Shown piece after piece: positions 3,879 through 11,282 of a stretch of DNA of 44,216 nt (the first letter of the stretch is position 1; every line of letters starts with the position of its first letter). Position numbers and translations under genes: made by a program. The DNA is from a virus, in IMG/VR virus record IMGVR_UViG_3300010396_000061, positions 1-44,216 of that record; one strand, 5' to 3'. A model generated the notes under the pieces. That model was not told where the DNA came from and made no database searches. It worked only from the letters and a program-made list of their open reading frames with translations.

Positions 3879-4465
3879 GCGAACAACTCCATCTGCTTCG
3901 GCTCGCGCTGCGCAAGAAGCGATTGCAGCCACGCGACGATGGTCGTGGTCTGCTTCTTGGAATCTTGCCATCCAGTCAGTAGTTCGCCCAGCATTTCCTG
4001 CGCGCCGGCATTGAGCGCTTCGTCGCGACTGGTCGCGAACTTGCCCCACTTCTCCAGCGGCGCATAGCCCATGCCTCCCGTGTTGCAGGTGAACGAAATG
4101 CCCCACATCCAGCGGCCATCGGAAGCCTGCGCCACGCGCACCTCGGCGCGAGGTAATGCCACGTAGTAAGGTCGACTCGGACGCTTCGGGTTGACGTAGG
4201 AGACGCCATCGAACTGTGTTCCGTCATATTGCGTCGGTGCCATCTGCCTCTCGCGACGGAGCGCCAAGAGATGCTCGATAGCCGAATGGATGTGCCTCGA
4301 TGCGGCGTCTATCGCCTCTCCGAATGACCAGAGCATCAGTCCCGAGTTCTGGTTGTAGGGTTCGCCGCCGAGGCGAAAGAACTTGGCCACGGCAATGCAG
4401 TCACGCGCCCACAACTTGTGGCGGTACGCGGCCAGCTCATGGCCGGGTTGTATGCCGTCAGCCAT
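3875..4465 (-). CDS. Hypothetical protein directly downstream of the DGR reverse transcriptase
   Basis: This 196-residue protein starts 8 bp inside the 3' end of the reverse transcriptase gene, so the two are likely translated together. The N-terminal half looks helical (LWSFGEAIDAASRHIHSAIEHLL). The second half is a mixed region with an ISFTCNTGGMGYAPLEKWG stretch. The C-terminus, QMELFA, resembles short acidic/aromatic tail motifs used to bind partners, but that is speculation. No DGR accessory family (Avd, HRDC or MSL) is recognised in it. Confidence 0.75.
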   Translation of the reverse strand: MADGIQPGHELAAYRHKLWARDCIAVAKFFRLGGEPYNQNSGLMLWSFGEAIDAASRHIHSAIEHLLALRRERQMAPTQYDGTQFDGVSYVNPKRPSRPYYVALPRAEVRVAQASDGRWMWGISFTCNTGGMGYAPLEKWGKFATSRDEALNAGAQEMLGELLTGWQDSKKQTTTIVAWLQSLLAQREPKQMELFA

Positions 4466-5813
4466 GGAACACCTCGATCCGCACCGTGCGCCCTTCCAGC
4501 CGATGGCTGAACCGCCGCTTCGTGTTTGCGAGCGGCGCTAACCAAGGCTGGCGGCGATGGATGGTTTGCTGCAGGCGGTGGGCGTTCGCGTGGCGCATGT
4601 GGCCGACGTAGCTTGACCACACGGACTGCAGGCGCCGGAAGTCGGCCGGCGTGCCGGTGGCAAGACGCCCGTGCAGGTGTTCCTTGCGCCACGCCTGCAA
4701 CTTCTCGGCAGCGTGGCTCAGGACGCGGCGACGCACGCGGGTATGCGTGGGGTAGACCACATAGCCGAGGAAGTCGCAGCCGGCCGACAGCGGACGCAGG
4801 CGCACATCGTCCTTGAGCTTCAGCTGCAGCTCGTCAGCCAGAAACTGCTCGATACGCTCCTTCCACTCGGCGAGCACGGCGCGGTCGTGATGGACCAGCA
4901 CGAAGTCGTCCACGAACCGCACGTAGCGTTTCGCCTTGAGCACGTGCTTCACGAACTGGTCGAGCTTGTCCAGGTACACGTTCGCGAAGAACTGCGACGA
5001 GAGGTTGCCGATCGGTAGGCCGCAGCCTGCGGGCGCGTTCTCCAGGCGCTTGTGCATCGGCACGCGGGCGCGCTCAGCTTCCGTGCAGCGGTAGCGGATG
5101 CCTTGCACCTGCACAGGATGGCGGAGCAGCGCATGCGTGGTGCGCAGCGCGACATCGGACAGGCCTGCGCGCGTCAGGCGCTCCTTGAGCATCGCCCACA
5201 GCGTCGGCCGGTGGATGCTCGGAAAGAAGTTCTTCACGTCGAGCTGCAGATACCATCCGCCACCCTGGCCAGAATGCACCTCGCGCACGAACTGGCGCAC
5301 GCGCTCTACGGCCTTGTGCGTGCCTTTGCCCTTGCGGTTCGAGTACGAGTCGAAGATGAAGCCGAGCTCGTAGATCGCCTCCAGCTGTGGCACGAGCCAG
5401 TGATGCACGACGCGGTCGCTGAAATCCGGCGCGTGGATCTCACGCGCCTTCGGCCGAGAGGCGATGAAGCACGTGGTCGGCAGCGGGCTCCACGTGCCGG
5501 CGTTCAATCGCTGCTGCAGCTCCAGCAGTCGATCCATCCAGCGCACCTCGAAAGCGAGTTGGTTGCGACTGGGCTGCTTGCGCCGGCGTGCCGCTTTCCA
5601 TGCGTGGTGCAGCGCCTCGACGCTGACCTGTCCACCCTTACACTCACCGGGACGCGGCACCAGGCGACACGGCCGCACGACGCCGCTGTTGTTGTCGCGG
5701 TTGTCGTAGTTGACGTTGCCGTTGTAGCCGTTGACCTGCCAGAGCGCGCGAGGTGCTTTCCCGTTCACTTGCGACCCGGCCACACAGCCGTCGAGGTAGC
5801 GTGGCGTCGTCAT
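4458..5813 (-). CDS. DGR reverse transcriptase; ORF begins with the in-frame template repeat
   Basis: The 451-codon frame starts at an ATG that overlaps the avd stop (ATGA), with a GAGG element upstream. Residues about 19-57 are the template repeat read in frame, and the RT proper begins near residue 62. RT motifs are clear: ARRRK at 75-79, DRVVHHWLVPQLE at 133-145, DSYSNRKGKGTH at 155-166, LDVKNFFPSI at 191-200, the DGR-specific GLPIGNLSSQ at 265-274 (retroviral RTs have QGxxxSP), and RFVDDF at 299-304 with Asp302/Asp303. The active-site tyrosine of YxDD is Phe here. With Avd it would make mutagenised cDNA from TR RNA. No ATG lies between the TR and RT block 0, so the N-terminus is either the TR-encoded one or begins at an internal GTG (for example codon 46 or 52, both inside TR). 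Confidence 0.95.
   Translation of the reverse strand: MTTPRYLDGCVAGSQVNGKAPRALWQVNGYNGNVNYDNRDNNSGVVRPCRLVPRPGECKGGQVSVEALHHAWKAARRRKQPSRNQLAFEVRWMDRLLELQQRLNAGTWSPLPTTCFIASRPKAREIHAPDFSDRVVHHWLVPQLEAIYELGFIFDSYSNRKGKGTHKAVERVRQFVREVHSGQGGGWYLQLDVKNFFPSIHRPTLWAMLKERLTRAGLSDVALRTTHALLRHPVQVQGIRYRCTEAERARVPMHKRLENAPAGCGLPIGNLSSQFFANVYLDKLDQFVKHVLKAKRYVRFVDDFVLVHHDRAVLAEWKERIEQFLADELQLKLKDDVRLRPLSAGCDFLGYVVYPTHTRVRRRVLSHAAEKLQAWRKEHLHGRLATGTPADFRRLQSVWSSYVGHMRHANAHRLQQTIHRRQPWLAPLANTKRRFSHRLEGRTVRIEVFHG
5646..5756 (-). repeat. DGR template repeat (TR)
   Basis: This 111-bp segment matches VR2 (10815-10925) and VR1 (6285-6392) except at adenines of its minus (coding) strand. The mutable stretch is rich in AAC, TAC and GAC codons, the usual DGR design that allows wide amino-acid change and avoids stop codons. 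Read in frame it encodes the same C-terminal segment as the target proteins (PRALWQVNGYNGNVN onward). At the IMH side the first base outside the repeat is G on the coding strand, where both VRs have C (GGTGAG versus GGTCAG). It lies inside the RT open reading frame. Confidence 0.96.
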
Positions 5814-6247
5814 GCGTTGGCCTCACCGATCGAGGCGGAACGGGCACTCAGTGTATTGGCGCTCTGCCCATGCACTACGGCCTGGGCACTCTGGCCTTGA
5901 GGGTGACTCACGGAGCGATGCCAACCACCGACTTGCTGCCCCAGCTTCGCGGCGTCGCGGTACAACGCCTCGAACTGACGAAAGCTGACGAAGGCACGCA
6001 TCTGCTTGCCAAGCTGCAGGGACAGCTTCAGATCGTCGACCTTGTCGCGTAGCTCCTCCAGCAGTGCCGAACGTCGCTCCGGACGCAACGCAGCCAGATT
6101 GGCCGTGCTGAGCACGGACCAGGCGCGCTCCCGCAGCTCCGCCCCGAAGGCATATCGATGCTTGCGCGGGAACCGCGTTACCGCCTCCTCAATAGTTGAG
6201 GAGAGCGATTCGGCGAGACGTATGGCGGCTGGAAGGGTGAAGATCAT
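5810..6247 (-). CDS. avd: DGR accessory variability determinant (Avd)
   Basis: A 145-residue helical protein, the usual Avd length or slightly longer. It fits the Avd/S23-like four-helix-bundle family: AAIRLAESLSSTIEEAVTRF, then FPRKHRYAFGAELRERAW, the diagnostic RHKYALGERLR-like helix, and an amphipathic helix ending QMRAFVSFRQFE. The C-terminal 40 residues are low-complexity Ser/Gln/Ala. Avd forms a basic pentamer that binds RT and TR RNA and is needed for mutagenic cDNA synthesis. It lies between VR1 and TR, and its TGA overlaps the ATG of the TR-RT frame. Confidence 0.92.
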   Translation of the reverse strand: MIFTLPAAIRLAESLSSTIEEAVTRFPRKHRYAFGAELRERAWSVLSTANLAALRPERRSALLEELRDKVDDLKLSLQLGKQMRAFVSFRQFEALYRDAAKLGQQVGGWHRSVSHPQGQSAQAVVHGQSANTLSARSASIGEANA

Positions 6248-6251
6248 GGAA

Positions 6252-6263
6252 GTCTACGCAGAC
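6252..6263 (-). other. Candidate DGR hairpin downstream of VR1
   Basis: On the coding strand GTCT-GCGT-AGAC forms a 4-bp stem with a 4-nt loop, 21 nt beyond the VR1 edge. DGR target recognition in phage BPP-1 uses a hairpin/cruciform just after the VR. A stronger hairpin sits at nearly the same distance after VR2. The stem alone is too short to be convincing. Confidence 0.4.
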
Positions 6264-6278
6264 AAGGGACGAGGAGAT

Positions 6279-6803
6279 TCACTGACCGGGACGCGGCACC
6301 AGGCGACACGGCCGCACGACGCCGCTGTCGTTGACGCGGGGGCCGGAGCCGACGCTGCCGCCGCAGCCGCTGACCTGCCAGAGCGCGCGAGGCTGTCCTT
6401 CCTCGTTGTTGCCGAGGGGCAGATAGGGCGTGCACGTCCATTCGTACCTCTCGCCCTTGAACGGCGCAGGCATGGCAGGATTGAAGCGCGTGCGATCGAT
6501 GATGGTTTCGCGCTGCTCCAGCGAGGCGATGCCCCAGCCCGACAGACCGCCCAGCTTCAGGTCGGCGACGTACTTCTCGGCCTTCGCATAGGACATGTAG
6601 TCCGTGGTGTCGGTGGCCCACTGGATGCCGGTCTTGTGGTCGGTGACGTAGGAGCCATCCGGCGACAGCTCGAAGCGTGGACGCGATACCTGGGCCTTGT
6701 TCGAAGCCTGCGACAGGTCGAGCTTGCCGAAGTCGACAGGGCCGACCGCCGGAGTGGGCAGGTGGAGGTGCAGGTGCTGCACGTGGATCAGTGGAGAGTT
6801 CAT
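6279..6803 (-). CDS. DGR target protein 1 (DUF1566-like, VR1 at C-terminus)
   Basis: A 174-residue protein starting at MNSPLIHVQHLHLHLP, preceded by AAGGA at 7 nt. The open frame extends to 7493, but that part overlaps another gene in a different frame and is rejected. Residues about 50-125 follow the DUF1566 (Lcl-type, C-type-lectin-like) pattern: TDHKTGIQWATDT, then AEKYVADLKLGGLSGW, GIASLEQRETIIDRT. The VR fills the last 38 residues, with variable positions at 145-159. No signal peptide is visible. The role is probably binding of a changeable ligand. It is expressed from the early operon, next to avd, not with tail genes, so virion location is unproven. Confidence 0.9.
   Translation of the reverse strand: MNSPLIHVQHLHLHLPTPAVGPVDFGKLDLSQASNKAQVSRPRFELSPDGSYVTDHKTGIQWATDTTDYMSYAKAEKYVADLKLGGLSGWGIASLEQRETIIDRTRFNPAMPAPFKGERYEWTCTPYLPLGNNEEGQPRALWQVSGCGGSVGSGPRVNDSGVVRPCRLVPRPGQ
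6285..6392 (-). repeat. DGR variable repeat 1 (VR1)
   Basis: It aligns without gaps to TR (offset 639) over 108 bp. I count 13 differences in the mutable core, all at TR adenines (coding strand): 10 A-to-G/C/T changes in AAC/TAC codons plus three in GAC and CAG-adjacent context. No other base class is altered. The downstream IMH-like 35 bp are identical to TR up to the final GGT. The frame ends in CAG-TGA directly after the repeat. Confidence 0.95.
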
Positions 6804-6901
6804 GCGGGTGTCCTTGGTGAGGATGTGGCAGGGCGCCGCGCTCACGCGGCCTGATCGAGCTCGGCGTTCTTCGCCGGCGGCACCAGCGTGATCTCCACGG
6901 T

Positions 6902-7492: not shown

Positions 7493-8521
7493 TCAGGCGT
7501 TGGCCAGCTCCTTCTCGCGCGCGCCGTAGAGCGCATGCAGCGCGCCGCGGCCGGCTTCCGGCGTCAGGTCGATCAGGGAGGCCGCCTCATCCAGCGCGTC
7601 GTGCGTGCTGGCCGCAGCGATGCCGTCGTGGACCTCCTGTGTGGTGAGGCTTTCGGCAGCGTTGCCGGTACGCATCGCTTCAGCGTGCTCCGCAGCCAAC
7701 TCGGCCTGCTGGATGCTGTAGTCGCCCTCGATCACCAGCGGGCTGTCTTGCGGCAGGCCGGCATCGGCCAGTTCGTCGTTCGCGATGGCGGACTGCAACT
7801 CGATGGACACCGGGAGCCACTTGAACAGGCGGCGCGTGACGGTCTTGAGCGCCATCGGCTCCTCGTGCTCCACCCATGGCGTGCTCGGCGGCTGGCCGGG
7901 CTTGGCGTAGCGCATGGCGGTCTTGTAACCCTGCGAGCTGTCGCGCACCTTATGCACGTCCGCGATGCTCATCACCTCGAACTGCACGCCGCCATCCTTG
8001 AGCTTCGCGATGGCATAGACGTGCGTGATCGGGCCGCGGTCGCCCTCGGCCGGAACATGGTGGATGGTTTCGTCGACACCGAACCGGTAGCTGAACTCGT
8101 CGCCCTTGCGCACGGCGCGCGCGGTCAAGCTCACGATCTGGCCAGAGCGGCGCGCGAGATCGAGCATGCCGCGGTAGCCGATGATGAACTGCACCTCTGT
8201 GCGCTCGGCGCGGCGGTTCTCGAACGGGATCAGATAGCAGTGGCCGAGAGCCCCGCCCGGCTCCAGGCCCAGCGCAGCGCACTGCATGATCGCGCCGAGG
8301 AAGCTCGTCTGGTCGCACTGCGCCAGCTTCGGCACCTTGCGAACTTCGGTGAGCGCGATGCGGGCGAGGCGGTTGGCGGTGACGTGCTTCGGCAGCGCGA
8401 GCGCCATCTGCGCCTTGATCGACGGATCGGTGAGCAGGCCGGCGATGGTCTTCGGCTTCTCGGGACGCTGGGCAACGTCGGTGCCCGCGATGTGGTTCTG
8501 CAAAGCGTTGGCCTTGGCCAT
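7493..8521 (-). CDS. recT: RecT-family single-strand annealing protein
   Basis: A 342-residue RecT protein starting MAKANALQNHIAGTD. A longer frame to 8572 adds non-coding-like residues. The family pattern is visible: LPKHVTANRLARIALTEVRK, then SFLGAIMQCAALGLEPG, YLIPF, VQFIIGYRGMLDLARRSG, and an acidic C-terminal tail. RecT anneals complementary single strands during phage recombination. It is paired with the YqaJ-type nuclease upstream (23 bp gap), the usual exonuclease/annealase pair. DGR retrohoming needs cDNA integration at homologous VR, so an adjacent annealase is suggestive, but this link is inference only. Confidence 0.95.
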   Translation of the reverse strand: MAKANALQNHIAGTDVAQRPEKPKTIAGLLTDPSIKAQMALALPKHVTANRLARIALTEVRKVPKLAQCDQTSFLGAIMQCAALGLEPGGALGHCYLIPFENRRAERTEVQFIIGYRGMLDLARRSGQIVSLTARAVRKGDEFSYRFGVDETIHHVPAEGDRGPITHVYAIAKLKDGGVQFEVMSIADVHKVRDSSQGYKTAMRYAKPGQPPSTPWVEHEEPMALKTVTRRLFKWLPVSIELQSAIANDELADAGLPQDSPLVIEGDYSIQQAELAAEHAEAMRTGNAAESLTTQEVHDGIAAASTHDALDEAASLIDLTPEAGRGALHALYGAREKELANA

Positions 8522-8543
8522 GGGTGTTTCTCCTCGGGGTGAT

Positions 8544-9380
8544 TCAGCGGATGCGGAACACGCGGATGCCATCGGCGCGCGCCTTCCAGGTGAGTGCGGG
8601 CTTGCCGTCGACCAGCAGCGTGGTGGCGTCGCGCATGAAGGCCTTGATCGCGTACTCGTGGACGTCTTTGCGCGCCTCGTGCAGCTTCAGCGCCTGTCGC
8701 GCGGCTTCCAGTGCTTCGAGCGATTCGCGGATATCGGCGTCCGCCTCGACGGCGCGGCCGCTGTCGTGCTCGTACAGCTTCAGCACGTCGGCGGCATTCG
8801 TCGGCTGCGGCGGCCGGCGCGCCTCGATGTGCCAGCGCCAGAACTCAGCGGTGCGCTGGCGGATTTCGCGGATCGTCGGCTCGTGTGCCTCGATGCGGTA
8901 CAGACGGTAGTCGTCGAAGCCCACCAGCGCCTGCACGTAGCAGTGCGTCGCAGGGTGCACGCCAAGCCCCCACATCGCCTGCGCGGTGACGTACAGCGGC
9001 GGCTCCTCGCCAGCATCCGGGTCGCCCCAGTCGCGGACGGCGTTCGGGTGCACGGTCTTCGTCTCACCGTTGCCGCCGTCCTCGACCTCGAAATCGATCT
9101 CGGACTTCGCCCATGGGATCATCGCGTCGTCGTAGCGCTGGTTCGCGCGCACCACGGCCAAGCCGGTCTTGCGCGTGAACTTCTTCGCCGCCCACGGCTC
9201 CAGGTCGCGCCGGTCCTCGAGGAACTCCGCCTTCTCCGGCGTGACGACTTCCTCGCGCTCGCCCGTGATCAGCAGGTACTCGTCCAGCGGCGTGCGGAAC
9301 GGGCTGATGCCGAGGATGCCGGCCACGTTGGCGCCCCCGATGTAGCCGACGCGAGAGTGGGGAATGGCTTGGGCGTTCAC
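8544..9380 (-). CDS. YqaJ-type viral recombinase / exonuclease
   Basis: A 278-residue protein with a GTG start at 9380 that overlaps the TGA of the 56-residue gene (GTGA). Extension to 9692 is Arg-rich shadow. It shows the YqaJ nuclease fold: IGGANVAGILGISPFRTPLDEYL, then EPWAAKKFTRKTG, SEIDFEVED (acidic metal site), and the ETKTVHPN catalytic E-x-K. This 5'-3' exonuclease would resect DNA ends for RecT. The C-terminal third is helical. Confidence 0.93.
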   Translation of the reverse strand: MNAQAIPHSRVGYIGGANVAGILGISPFRTPLDEYLLITGEREEVVTPEKAEFLEDRRDLEPWAAKKFTRKTGLAVVRANQRYDDAMIPWAKSEIDFEVEDGGNGETKTVHPNAVRDWGDPDAGEEPPLYVTAQAMWGLGVHPATHCYVQALVGFDDYRLYRIEAHEPTIREIRQRTAEFWRWHIEARRPPQPTNAADVLKLYEHDSGRAVEADADIRESLEALEAARQALKLHEARKDVHEYAIKAFMRDATTLLVDGKPALTWKARADGIRVFRIR

Positions 9381-10808: not shown

Positions 10809-11282
10809 TCACTGACCGGGACGCGGCACCAGGCGACACGGCCGCACGACGCCGCTGTAGGCGTCGCGGGCGTCGCAGAAGACGCTGCCGTAGCAGCCGC
10901 AGACCAGCCAGAGCGCGCGAGGTGCACCGTTCTTATCCTTGCCGCGCCACTCGACGCCGTGCGCCGTCCAGTACCAGTCGCACTCGGCATCGGGAAACAG
11001 GTCGGGATCGGCCGCCGGGCTGCTGTGCCAGTAGTCGGTGGTCAGCAGCTGTATGCGCACATCAGGCGCGAGAATCCAGCCGTCGCCGCCGGCATGCTGC
11101 AGATCGGCGCAACGCTTCGTCGCGGCATCGAAGTTCATGTAGCCGGCGATGCCGTGGCCCACCGCGAACTCCACGCCGAAGTCAGGGTAGCGAATGGCGG
11201 CGTGGCCCTTGACGTTGAGCGGCATGATGTCGCCGGCGGGGCTGATCTTGAGGATGGTGGGCTTGGCGAAGTCGAGATGCAT
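10809..11282 (-). CDS. DGR target protein 2 (DUF1566-like, VR2 at C-terminus)
   Basis: A 157-residue protein starting MHLDFAKPTILKISPAGD, with AGGAG 6 nt upstream. The body (AIRYPDFGVEFAVGHG, FDAATKRCADLQHAGG, DGWILAPDVRIQLLTTDYWH, DCDWYW-like segment) fits a divergent DUF1566/C-lectin fold. The last 38 residues are VR2, with variable positions about 126-142, ending PRPGQ like target 1. It lies 4.4 kb from target 1 and 5.2 kb from TR, with the recombination genes between. No signal peptide is seen. Outside the VR, target 2 shares little obvious sequence with target 1, so the two probably bind different partners or have diverged widely. Confidence 0.88.
   Translation of the reverse strand: MHLDFAKPTILKISPAGDIMPLNVKGHAAIRYPDFGVEFAVGHGIAGYMNFDAATKRCADLQHAGGDGWILAPDVRIQLLTTDYWHSSPAADPDLFPDAECDWYWTAHGVEWRGKDKNGAPRALWLVCGCYGSVFCDARDAYSGVVRPCRLVPRPGQ
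10815..10925 (-). repeat. DGR variable repeat 2 (VR2)
   Basis: A gap-free match to TR (offset 5169) over 111 bp. I count 14 differences, all at TR adenines of the coding strand, including the CAG-to-CTG codon that is unchanged in VR1. Ten of the changed positions are also changed in VR1, and seven differ between the two sets, so the mutagenesis events were independent. The IMH side is identical to VR1 through GGTCAG-TGA. Confidence 0.95.

Follow-up and report, generated by a model that had tools for sequence, protein, structure and literature searches.

Evidence for a template RNA overprinted by avd and reverse transcriptase codons in a clade of diversity-generating retroelements

Is the template repeat (TR) of a diversity-generating retroelement (DGR) translated when it lies in frame within the reverse transcriptase (RT) gene, and where does the RT then start? 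The question is raised by a DGR cassette, comprising target gene 1 with its variable repeat (VR1), avd and RT, on the minus strand of IMG/VR virus record IMGVR_UViG_3300010396_000061, a 44,216-base sequence analysed over its full length and referred to here as the window. A preliminary description placed the RT open reading frame (ORF) at 4458–5813 (minus strand, 451 aa), with an ATG overlapping the avd stop codon as ATGA, and these coordinates were confirmed. So was its claim that the frame runs through the whole TR without a stop: starting from the ATG at 5813, it crosses the TR and continues into the RT core. The next in-frame ATG past the TR is codon 93 (5537), already within the core, in agreement with the statement that no ATG separates TR and core and that residue 93 is the first internal Met. 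The only in-frame GTG codons near the 3' end of the TR (5678 and 5660) are both inside it. Two starts had been considered, either the ATG at 5813, giving the RT a TR-encoded N-terminal extension, or a GTG within the TR. We consider it very likely that the locus represents a DGR clade whose template RNA is overlaid by coding sequence over its full extent, with a coupled RT start, a translated TR, and a conserved fold clamping the TR.

The TR is genuine; all 13 mismatches of VR1 to it and all 14 mismatches of the second variable repeat (VR2) fall on its adenines, of which there are 20, and none occur elsewhere. In the window its reading frame is that of the VR target genes, and part of its openness is therefore owed to the VR. 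The RT frame of BPP-1 is likewise open across the TR, although brt starts 144 nucleotides (nt) after it. Given this unused open frame and the reading in the VR frame, an open frame in one genome is weak evidence of translation.

For the comparison, 165 related loci were collected from IMG/VR and GTDB, and TR/VR pairs were identified in 159 of the 166 loci (window included). The window clade, defined by an RT core at least 55% identical, contains 107 loci with a TR, and the non-redundant set (90% redundancy) consists of 73 loci. A survey of related RTs for in-frame TR-RT fusion had been set beforehand as a test, and the fusion was found throughout the clade: in 107 of 107 loci, an open RT frame begins at a start codon ahead of the TR and crosses the TR, this codon being ATG in 106 of them and GTG in L073. 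From the leader ATG (the leader being the RT codons upstream of the TR) to the core, the 73 loci have 0 stops in 4,696 RT-frame codons, compared to 133 and 94 in the other frames, and the distance from ATG to core takes 20 different values (168–225 nt), every one of them in frame. It is this conservation across relatives that raises the translation reading above chance. At the start site, ATGA is invariant and GG is present at −9,−8 in 71 of 71 aligned loci, [AG]GG is found at −10 to −8 in 71 of 73, and the avd stop TGA overlaps the RT ATG in 72 of 73, the avd frame being at least 90 codons long in 71 of 72. The four loci without the usual ATG all retain a start that overlaps avd and precedes the TR. 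In L047, L054 and L060, it is 36 nt later or nearby, before the TR and overlapping the avd stop; avd stop and RT start have shifted downstream jointly, with the overlap kept and the RNA described below retained. L073 and L207 have GTG in place of ATG at the same position. Among held-out loci with unseen RT DNA, which came from a viral scan with sister RTs that returned mostly window-clade loci, the coupled start and open frame are present in 14 of 16.

It could be argued that the open frame is a by-product of VR coding and of a leader and gap that are short and GC-rich, with the RT starting inside or after the TR. Most loci do read the TR in the VR frame, BPP-1 keeps an open frame that it does not use, and in-frame GTG codons exist inside the TR. 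This explanation is however hardly tenable in view of the complete lack of stops, the invariant Shine-Dalgarno and ATGA, and three loci (L039, L048 and L102; at least three non-redundant loci) in which the TR is read in a Thr-rich frame other than that of the VR, yet is open. A longest-open-frame heuristic mis-assigned the VR frame in several loci and was replaced by inspection of motifs and ORF ends in three loci. In addition, no start in or after the TR is conserved, and 46 of the 73 loci lack any ATG, GTG or TTG between TR and core. Of the two starts considered at first, the GTG inside the TR is not supported, as it is not conserved across loci, while the other is upheld by the Shine-Dalgarno, the ATGA and the conserved open frame: judging from the sequences, the RT most likely carries a TR-encoded N-terminal extension starting at the ATG at 5813. 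The translated TR and coupled RT start are confirmed for the whole clade at this level of evidence.

The 59-residue extension looks disordered in the AlphaFold2 model (57 full-length rows), with predicted local distance difference test values of 31–43 for residues 1–59 and mostly >90 for the RT core. A protein function of this tail (RNA or Avd binding, for example) would be another reason for a selected fusion, and the fusion is indeed kept clade-wide and has arisen again in the VHML-like clade. The predicted disorder, the highly variable tail sequence and the Thr-rich tail read in another frame in some loci make such a function unlikely.

The third codon positions of the leader are conserved (0.92 observed compared to 0.37 expected for ACG, 1.00 compared to 0.38 for CGC), and an RNA constraint was suspected for this reason. 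Protein-level conservation as the sole cause is rejected, since the third positions are frozen at paired RNA sites. Using RNAalifold on 60 loci, the region from ATG−200 to the TR start folds with −41.9 kcal/mol, compared to −0.4 (standard deviation 0.7) for shuffled columns. From the TR end to +220 the energy is exactly 0 in the same number of loci, and synonymous conservation is not raised in the first 20 codons after the TR; a BPP-1-like spacer RNA downstream of the TR was rejected for this lack of conserved fold and of raised synonymous conservation. Local folding z-scores were weak and uninformative, and a covariation test was needed, for which a fresh MAFFT alignment of 58 loci was compared with 500 column shuffles and slid controls. 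The 27 pairs of five helices (Table 1) are formed in 94.0% of cells, compared to 75.3% after shuffling, and 23 of them show double-sided changes; their covariation is 0.513 compared to 0.171, a value that none of the 500 shuffles and none of the slid controls reached. As the shuffle control leaves relatedness in, these figures are not p-values, and the case for a fold is made by the effect size, the slid controls and the independent pair combinations.

A long-range helix, P0 (consensus GANACU with AGUNUC), was revealed by joining the downstream side to the alignment. Across the 58 loci, 99.4% of its cells are paired, with a covariation of 0.283 compared to 0.063 for shuffled columns (0 of 500 shuffles). 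The combinations GACACT/AGTGTC, GAAACT/AGTTTC, GATACT/AGTATC, GATTCT/AGAATC, GCAACT/AGTTGC and GGAACT/AGTTCC all occur, the window having TACACT/AGTGTA, and in the held-out loci all six pairs form in 15 of 16, with the new CACACT/AGTGTG among them. On this covariation, P0 closes the TR into a loop. The whole element thus defined has 33 pairs, 27 of them with compensatory changes, and 32 of the 33 form in the window. No known family was found in an Rfam search of the window, the only match being a sub-threshold CsrC elsewhere.

The origin of this arrangement was approached with a covariance model of the RNA element (R1), which matches held-out clade members with 91–136 bits and sister DGRs (Thiotrichaceae, Methylococcales and others) with 15–55 bits. 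In the sister DGRs, avd generally ends near the RNA start, and the RNA is retained as a non-coding element. In L113, L117 and L119, the TR frame is terminated by a stop, and the RT begins at an ATG of its own after the TR; L113 keeps the fold and P0 (CUCACU/AGUGAG) but has no Shine-Dalgarno. L111 and L114 have poor TR/VR calls, so the polarity was drawn from L113, L117, L119 and similar loci. In the RT tree, loci with a translated TR group together (100/99), nested with the sister DGRs; ACA1, VP58.5 and phiARM81mr, which are VHML-like phages, make up another group, separate from the first (100% support). In the window, the 33 avd residues C-terminal of the bAvd domain (5813–5911) exactly overlie the RNA element. 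Most plausibly, avd grew at its 3' end (by these 33 residues) and RT at its 5' end over a pre-existing RNA, the two meeting at ATGA, a direction that the tree suggests. The conserved leader could instead be purely an RNA element that incidentally maintains the ATG and the ORF. The fold would account for the third-position conservation, and the RNA is also found where the RT starts after the TR. Yet L113 keeps the RNA having lost the Shine-Dalgarno, whereas the fused clade has a near-invariant Shine-Dalgarno, ATGA and frame, with the two GTG starts at the same place, so that this possibility is very unlikely.

With regard to mechanism, RT translation would be coupled from the avd end through the Shine-Dalgarno (5824–5821) and the ATGA at 5813, and the ribosome would translate 19 leader codons and then the TR into a disordered N-terminal tail ahead of the RT core. 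The same RNA would fold upstream of the TR, with the avd hairpin, P1 closing the start region, P2 on the Shine-Dalgarno and P3 in the leader, and P0 would tie this fold to the sequence just 3' of the TR. By analogy with BPP-1, RT-Avd could bind the upstream fold, substituting for the BPP-1 spacer, and P0 could serve as the duplex of primer and template, the invariant A 5848 acting as the priming site. Upstream priming is proposed because the P0 strand (ACU-G-A) has BPP-1's spacing to this adenosine; whether cDNA (complementary DNA) is primed there through P0 is in our opinion evenly balanced. Since the P1 strands flank Shine-Dalgarno and ATG, and P2 pairs the Shine-Dalgarno, ribosome and template fold would be mutually exclusive. 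Ribosome passage would unfold the element, each RNA molecule being either message or template; RT synthesis and template use probably exclude each other on one molecule, and the competition of translation with templating that the preliminary description had raised is plausible, gaining definition from an RT start site embedded in the fold. If RT-Avd stabilises the fold, its binding would repress RT synthesis, and such an autorepression is suggested tentatively. The fuller picture, with the RT ribosome-binding site inside the template ribonucleoprotein, RT-Avd shutting off RT translation and committing the RNA to copying, and P0 priming as a permuted BPP-1 arrangement, is more speculative and may well not hold in all its parts.

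There would be no competition if distinct transcripts separated translation from templating. No sigma-70-like promoter or terminator was found in 4300–6900, which is a weak test, and since P0 pairs avd sequence with RT codons, both must be present on the template RNA; we find separate transcripts somewhat unlikely. Several points nevertheless weigh against the mechanism and the reading it builds on. RT-Avd binding, P0 priming and the split between message and template are all argued from BPP-1, and an additional short TR transcript is possible. Covariation support for P2 is weak because two of its pairs are invariant, on a strand that the Shine-Dalgarno constrains anyway. Finally, leader differences at codon positions 1/2/3 are 0.26/0.32/0.38, and protein-level selection on the leader is inseparable from RNA constraint.

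Table 1. Positions of the DGR features and RNA helices in the window.
Feature	Position	Strand	Evidence
DGR reverse transcriptase ORF, 451 aa (leader, TR and RT core)	4458..5813	−	ORF call; Pfam RVT_1 at residues 122-334
ATGA, RT start codon overlapping avd stop codon	5810..5813	−	invariant in 71/71 aligned loci
Shine-Dalgarno GAGG of RT	5821..5824	−	GG at -9,-8 in 71/71
RT leader codons MTxPRY..GC.AGSQV.G upstream of TR	5756..5813	−	third codon positions constrained too
TR, translated in RT frame	5646..5755 (5' limit approximate)	−	TR/VR mismatches at adenines
avd, 145 aa (residues 15-112 match bAvd)	5810..6247	−	PF22296, E=1.3e-7
Target gene 1 (Lcl_C) with VR1 at 6392-6292	6279..6803	−	domain match and TR/VR mismatches
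Target gene 2 (Lcl_C, below cut-off) with VR2 at 10922-10822	10809..11282	−	domain match and TR/VR mismatches
P0 5' strand UACACU, in avd reading frame	5850..5855	−	pairs with 5644-5639
P0 3' strand AGUGUA, in RT codons immediately 3' of TR	5639..5644	−	pairs with 5855-5850
Invariant A two nt 3' of P0 5' strand, putative cDNA-priming adenosine	5848	−	CTGAGT invariant in 58/58
RNA hairpin of two stacked helices, avd 3' coding region	5858..5896	−	10 pairs, all with double-sided changes
P1 5' strand	5838..5844	−	7 pairs with 5766-5760 (97.8% of cells paired), each showing compensatory changes
P1 3' strand, in the final leader codons ahead of TR	5760..5766	−	pairs with 5844-5838
P2 hairpin, pairing RT Shine-Dalgarno	5820..5836	−	4 pairs, 97.4% of cells paired; two pairs never vary
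P3 hairpin inside RT leader codons	5779..5805	−	6 pairs, 93.4% paired, 5 with compensatory changes

The remaining parts of the cassette are those of a DGR. In addition to its RVT_1 match, the window RT contains the residues SSQ and VDD and groups with DGR RTs in the tree; its best PDB sequence match is 8ub7_A ("Reverse transcriptase"), which we take from its length of 328 aa to be the BPP-1 bRT. The bAvd match of avd (32.5 bits) is under the curated cut-off of 40, and of the two target matches to Lcl_C (PF07603), the second is under cut-off. By its sequence, the element looks functional and agrees with every DGR criterion tested (TR/VR, RT, Avd, C-type-lectin-like target), and the divergence of VR1 and VR2 implies past mutagenic retrohoming. 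The two targets, both small Lcl_C-type proteins, are encoded close to a RecT gene (7493–8572) and an integrase (835–2043), with no obvious tail module around them. A perfect 8-nt inverted repeat (CTCCTCAA/TTGAGGAG, 3-nt loop) is located at 6185–6203, about 90 bases 3' of VR1, and could correspond to the retrohoming hairpin of BPP-1.

The pattern is common to the window phage and more than 100 relatives, the 107 clade loci with a TR. It would place a mutagenic template under three codes together (target-protein codons, RT codons and RNA fold), and it offers a precise, mutable prediction, for a large clade of DGRs other than BPP-1, of the primer-template helix, as well as a testable route for a DGR to limit its own enzyme. 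RT starts in the window clade may be misannotated, and searches for non-coding RNA confined to intergenic regions would overlook such elements.

Translation of the TR itself is precedented by one report, that of the ACA phages in 2023, which states that the TR is translated as an N-terminal extension of the RT (PMC10612066). In ACA1/ACA2 and VP58.5 (VHML-like), the RT coding sequence similarly overlaps the avd stop by 4 nt and holds the TR in frame, and the RT as annotated in the deposited records of VP58.5, phiARM81mr and Magia already contains the TR. These phages differ from the window in that their RT lineage is separate, next to BPP-1, and about 12 nt lie between the ATG and the start of their TR; searches with R1 and Rfam revealed no equivalent of the RNA element in ACA1/ACA2 and VP58.5, no further search having been made. 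In structural group 3 of DiGReF, the TR overlaps the end of the annotated RT ORF (PMC3521204), but this is a positional class only, with no analysis of reading frame, start site or RNA. The RNA element, P0 and the embedded ribosome-binding site are reported neither in Rfam nor in the literature searched, which covered few subscription papers; the RNA architecture, which the preliminary description had missed, is the new part, and is more unusual than the translated TR.

The Rfam RT-15 RNA (RF03018) of Pseudomonas and Burkholderia DGRs is also a structured RNA spanning from the avd end to the TR start, and in many loci its AAUCUG pairs with CAGAUU at the TR end. It differs in sequence and fold, is largely intergenic and belongs to a sister lineage, and RF03018 has no match in the window at E<=1, nor in L003, L005, L006, L087 and L097 at the gathering score. 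TR translation is not conserved in RT-15 loci (frame open in 11 of 27), and this clade is therefore not claimed as a further case. In L168–L172 and L147 (Pseudomonas/Burkholderia/Shewanella DGRs), the end of RT-15 coincides exactly with the TR start, and RT-15 probably serves as template RNA for the DGRs of this clade. Some Pseudomonas DGRs (L135, L142, L146, L147 and L161) have an in-frame stop inside the TR followed by ATGATG, also inside the TR; from these codons, their RT may start within its own template.

BPP-1 (mtd-avd-TR-brt; Rfam Phage_DGR, RF03022) shares with the window the order avd-TR-RT, adenine mutagenesis and an SQ-type RT. The exact nucleotides in its cDNA priming at the TR are A56 and G117. 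Spacer RNA after the TR recruits bRT-Avd, and an adenine in the spacer primes cDNA at the TR 3' end (PMC12875486). The layout of the window is not of this type: in BPP-1, the TR is non-coding and the structured RNA (1316–1448) is downstream of it, with brt starting beyond the TR, whereas in the window the structured RNA is upstream of the TR and the TR is translated according to the conserved frame. In BPP-1, AGGUGGU, two nt before the priming A, complements AUCACCU at the TR 3' end. Both systems have a primer-side strand forming a duplex with the TR 3' region, and an A located two nt past that duplex.
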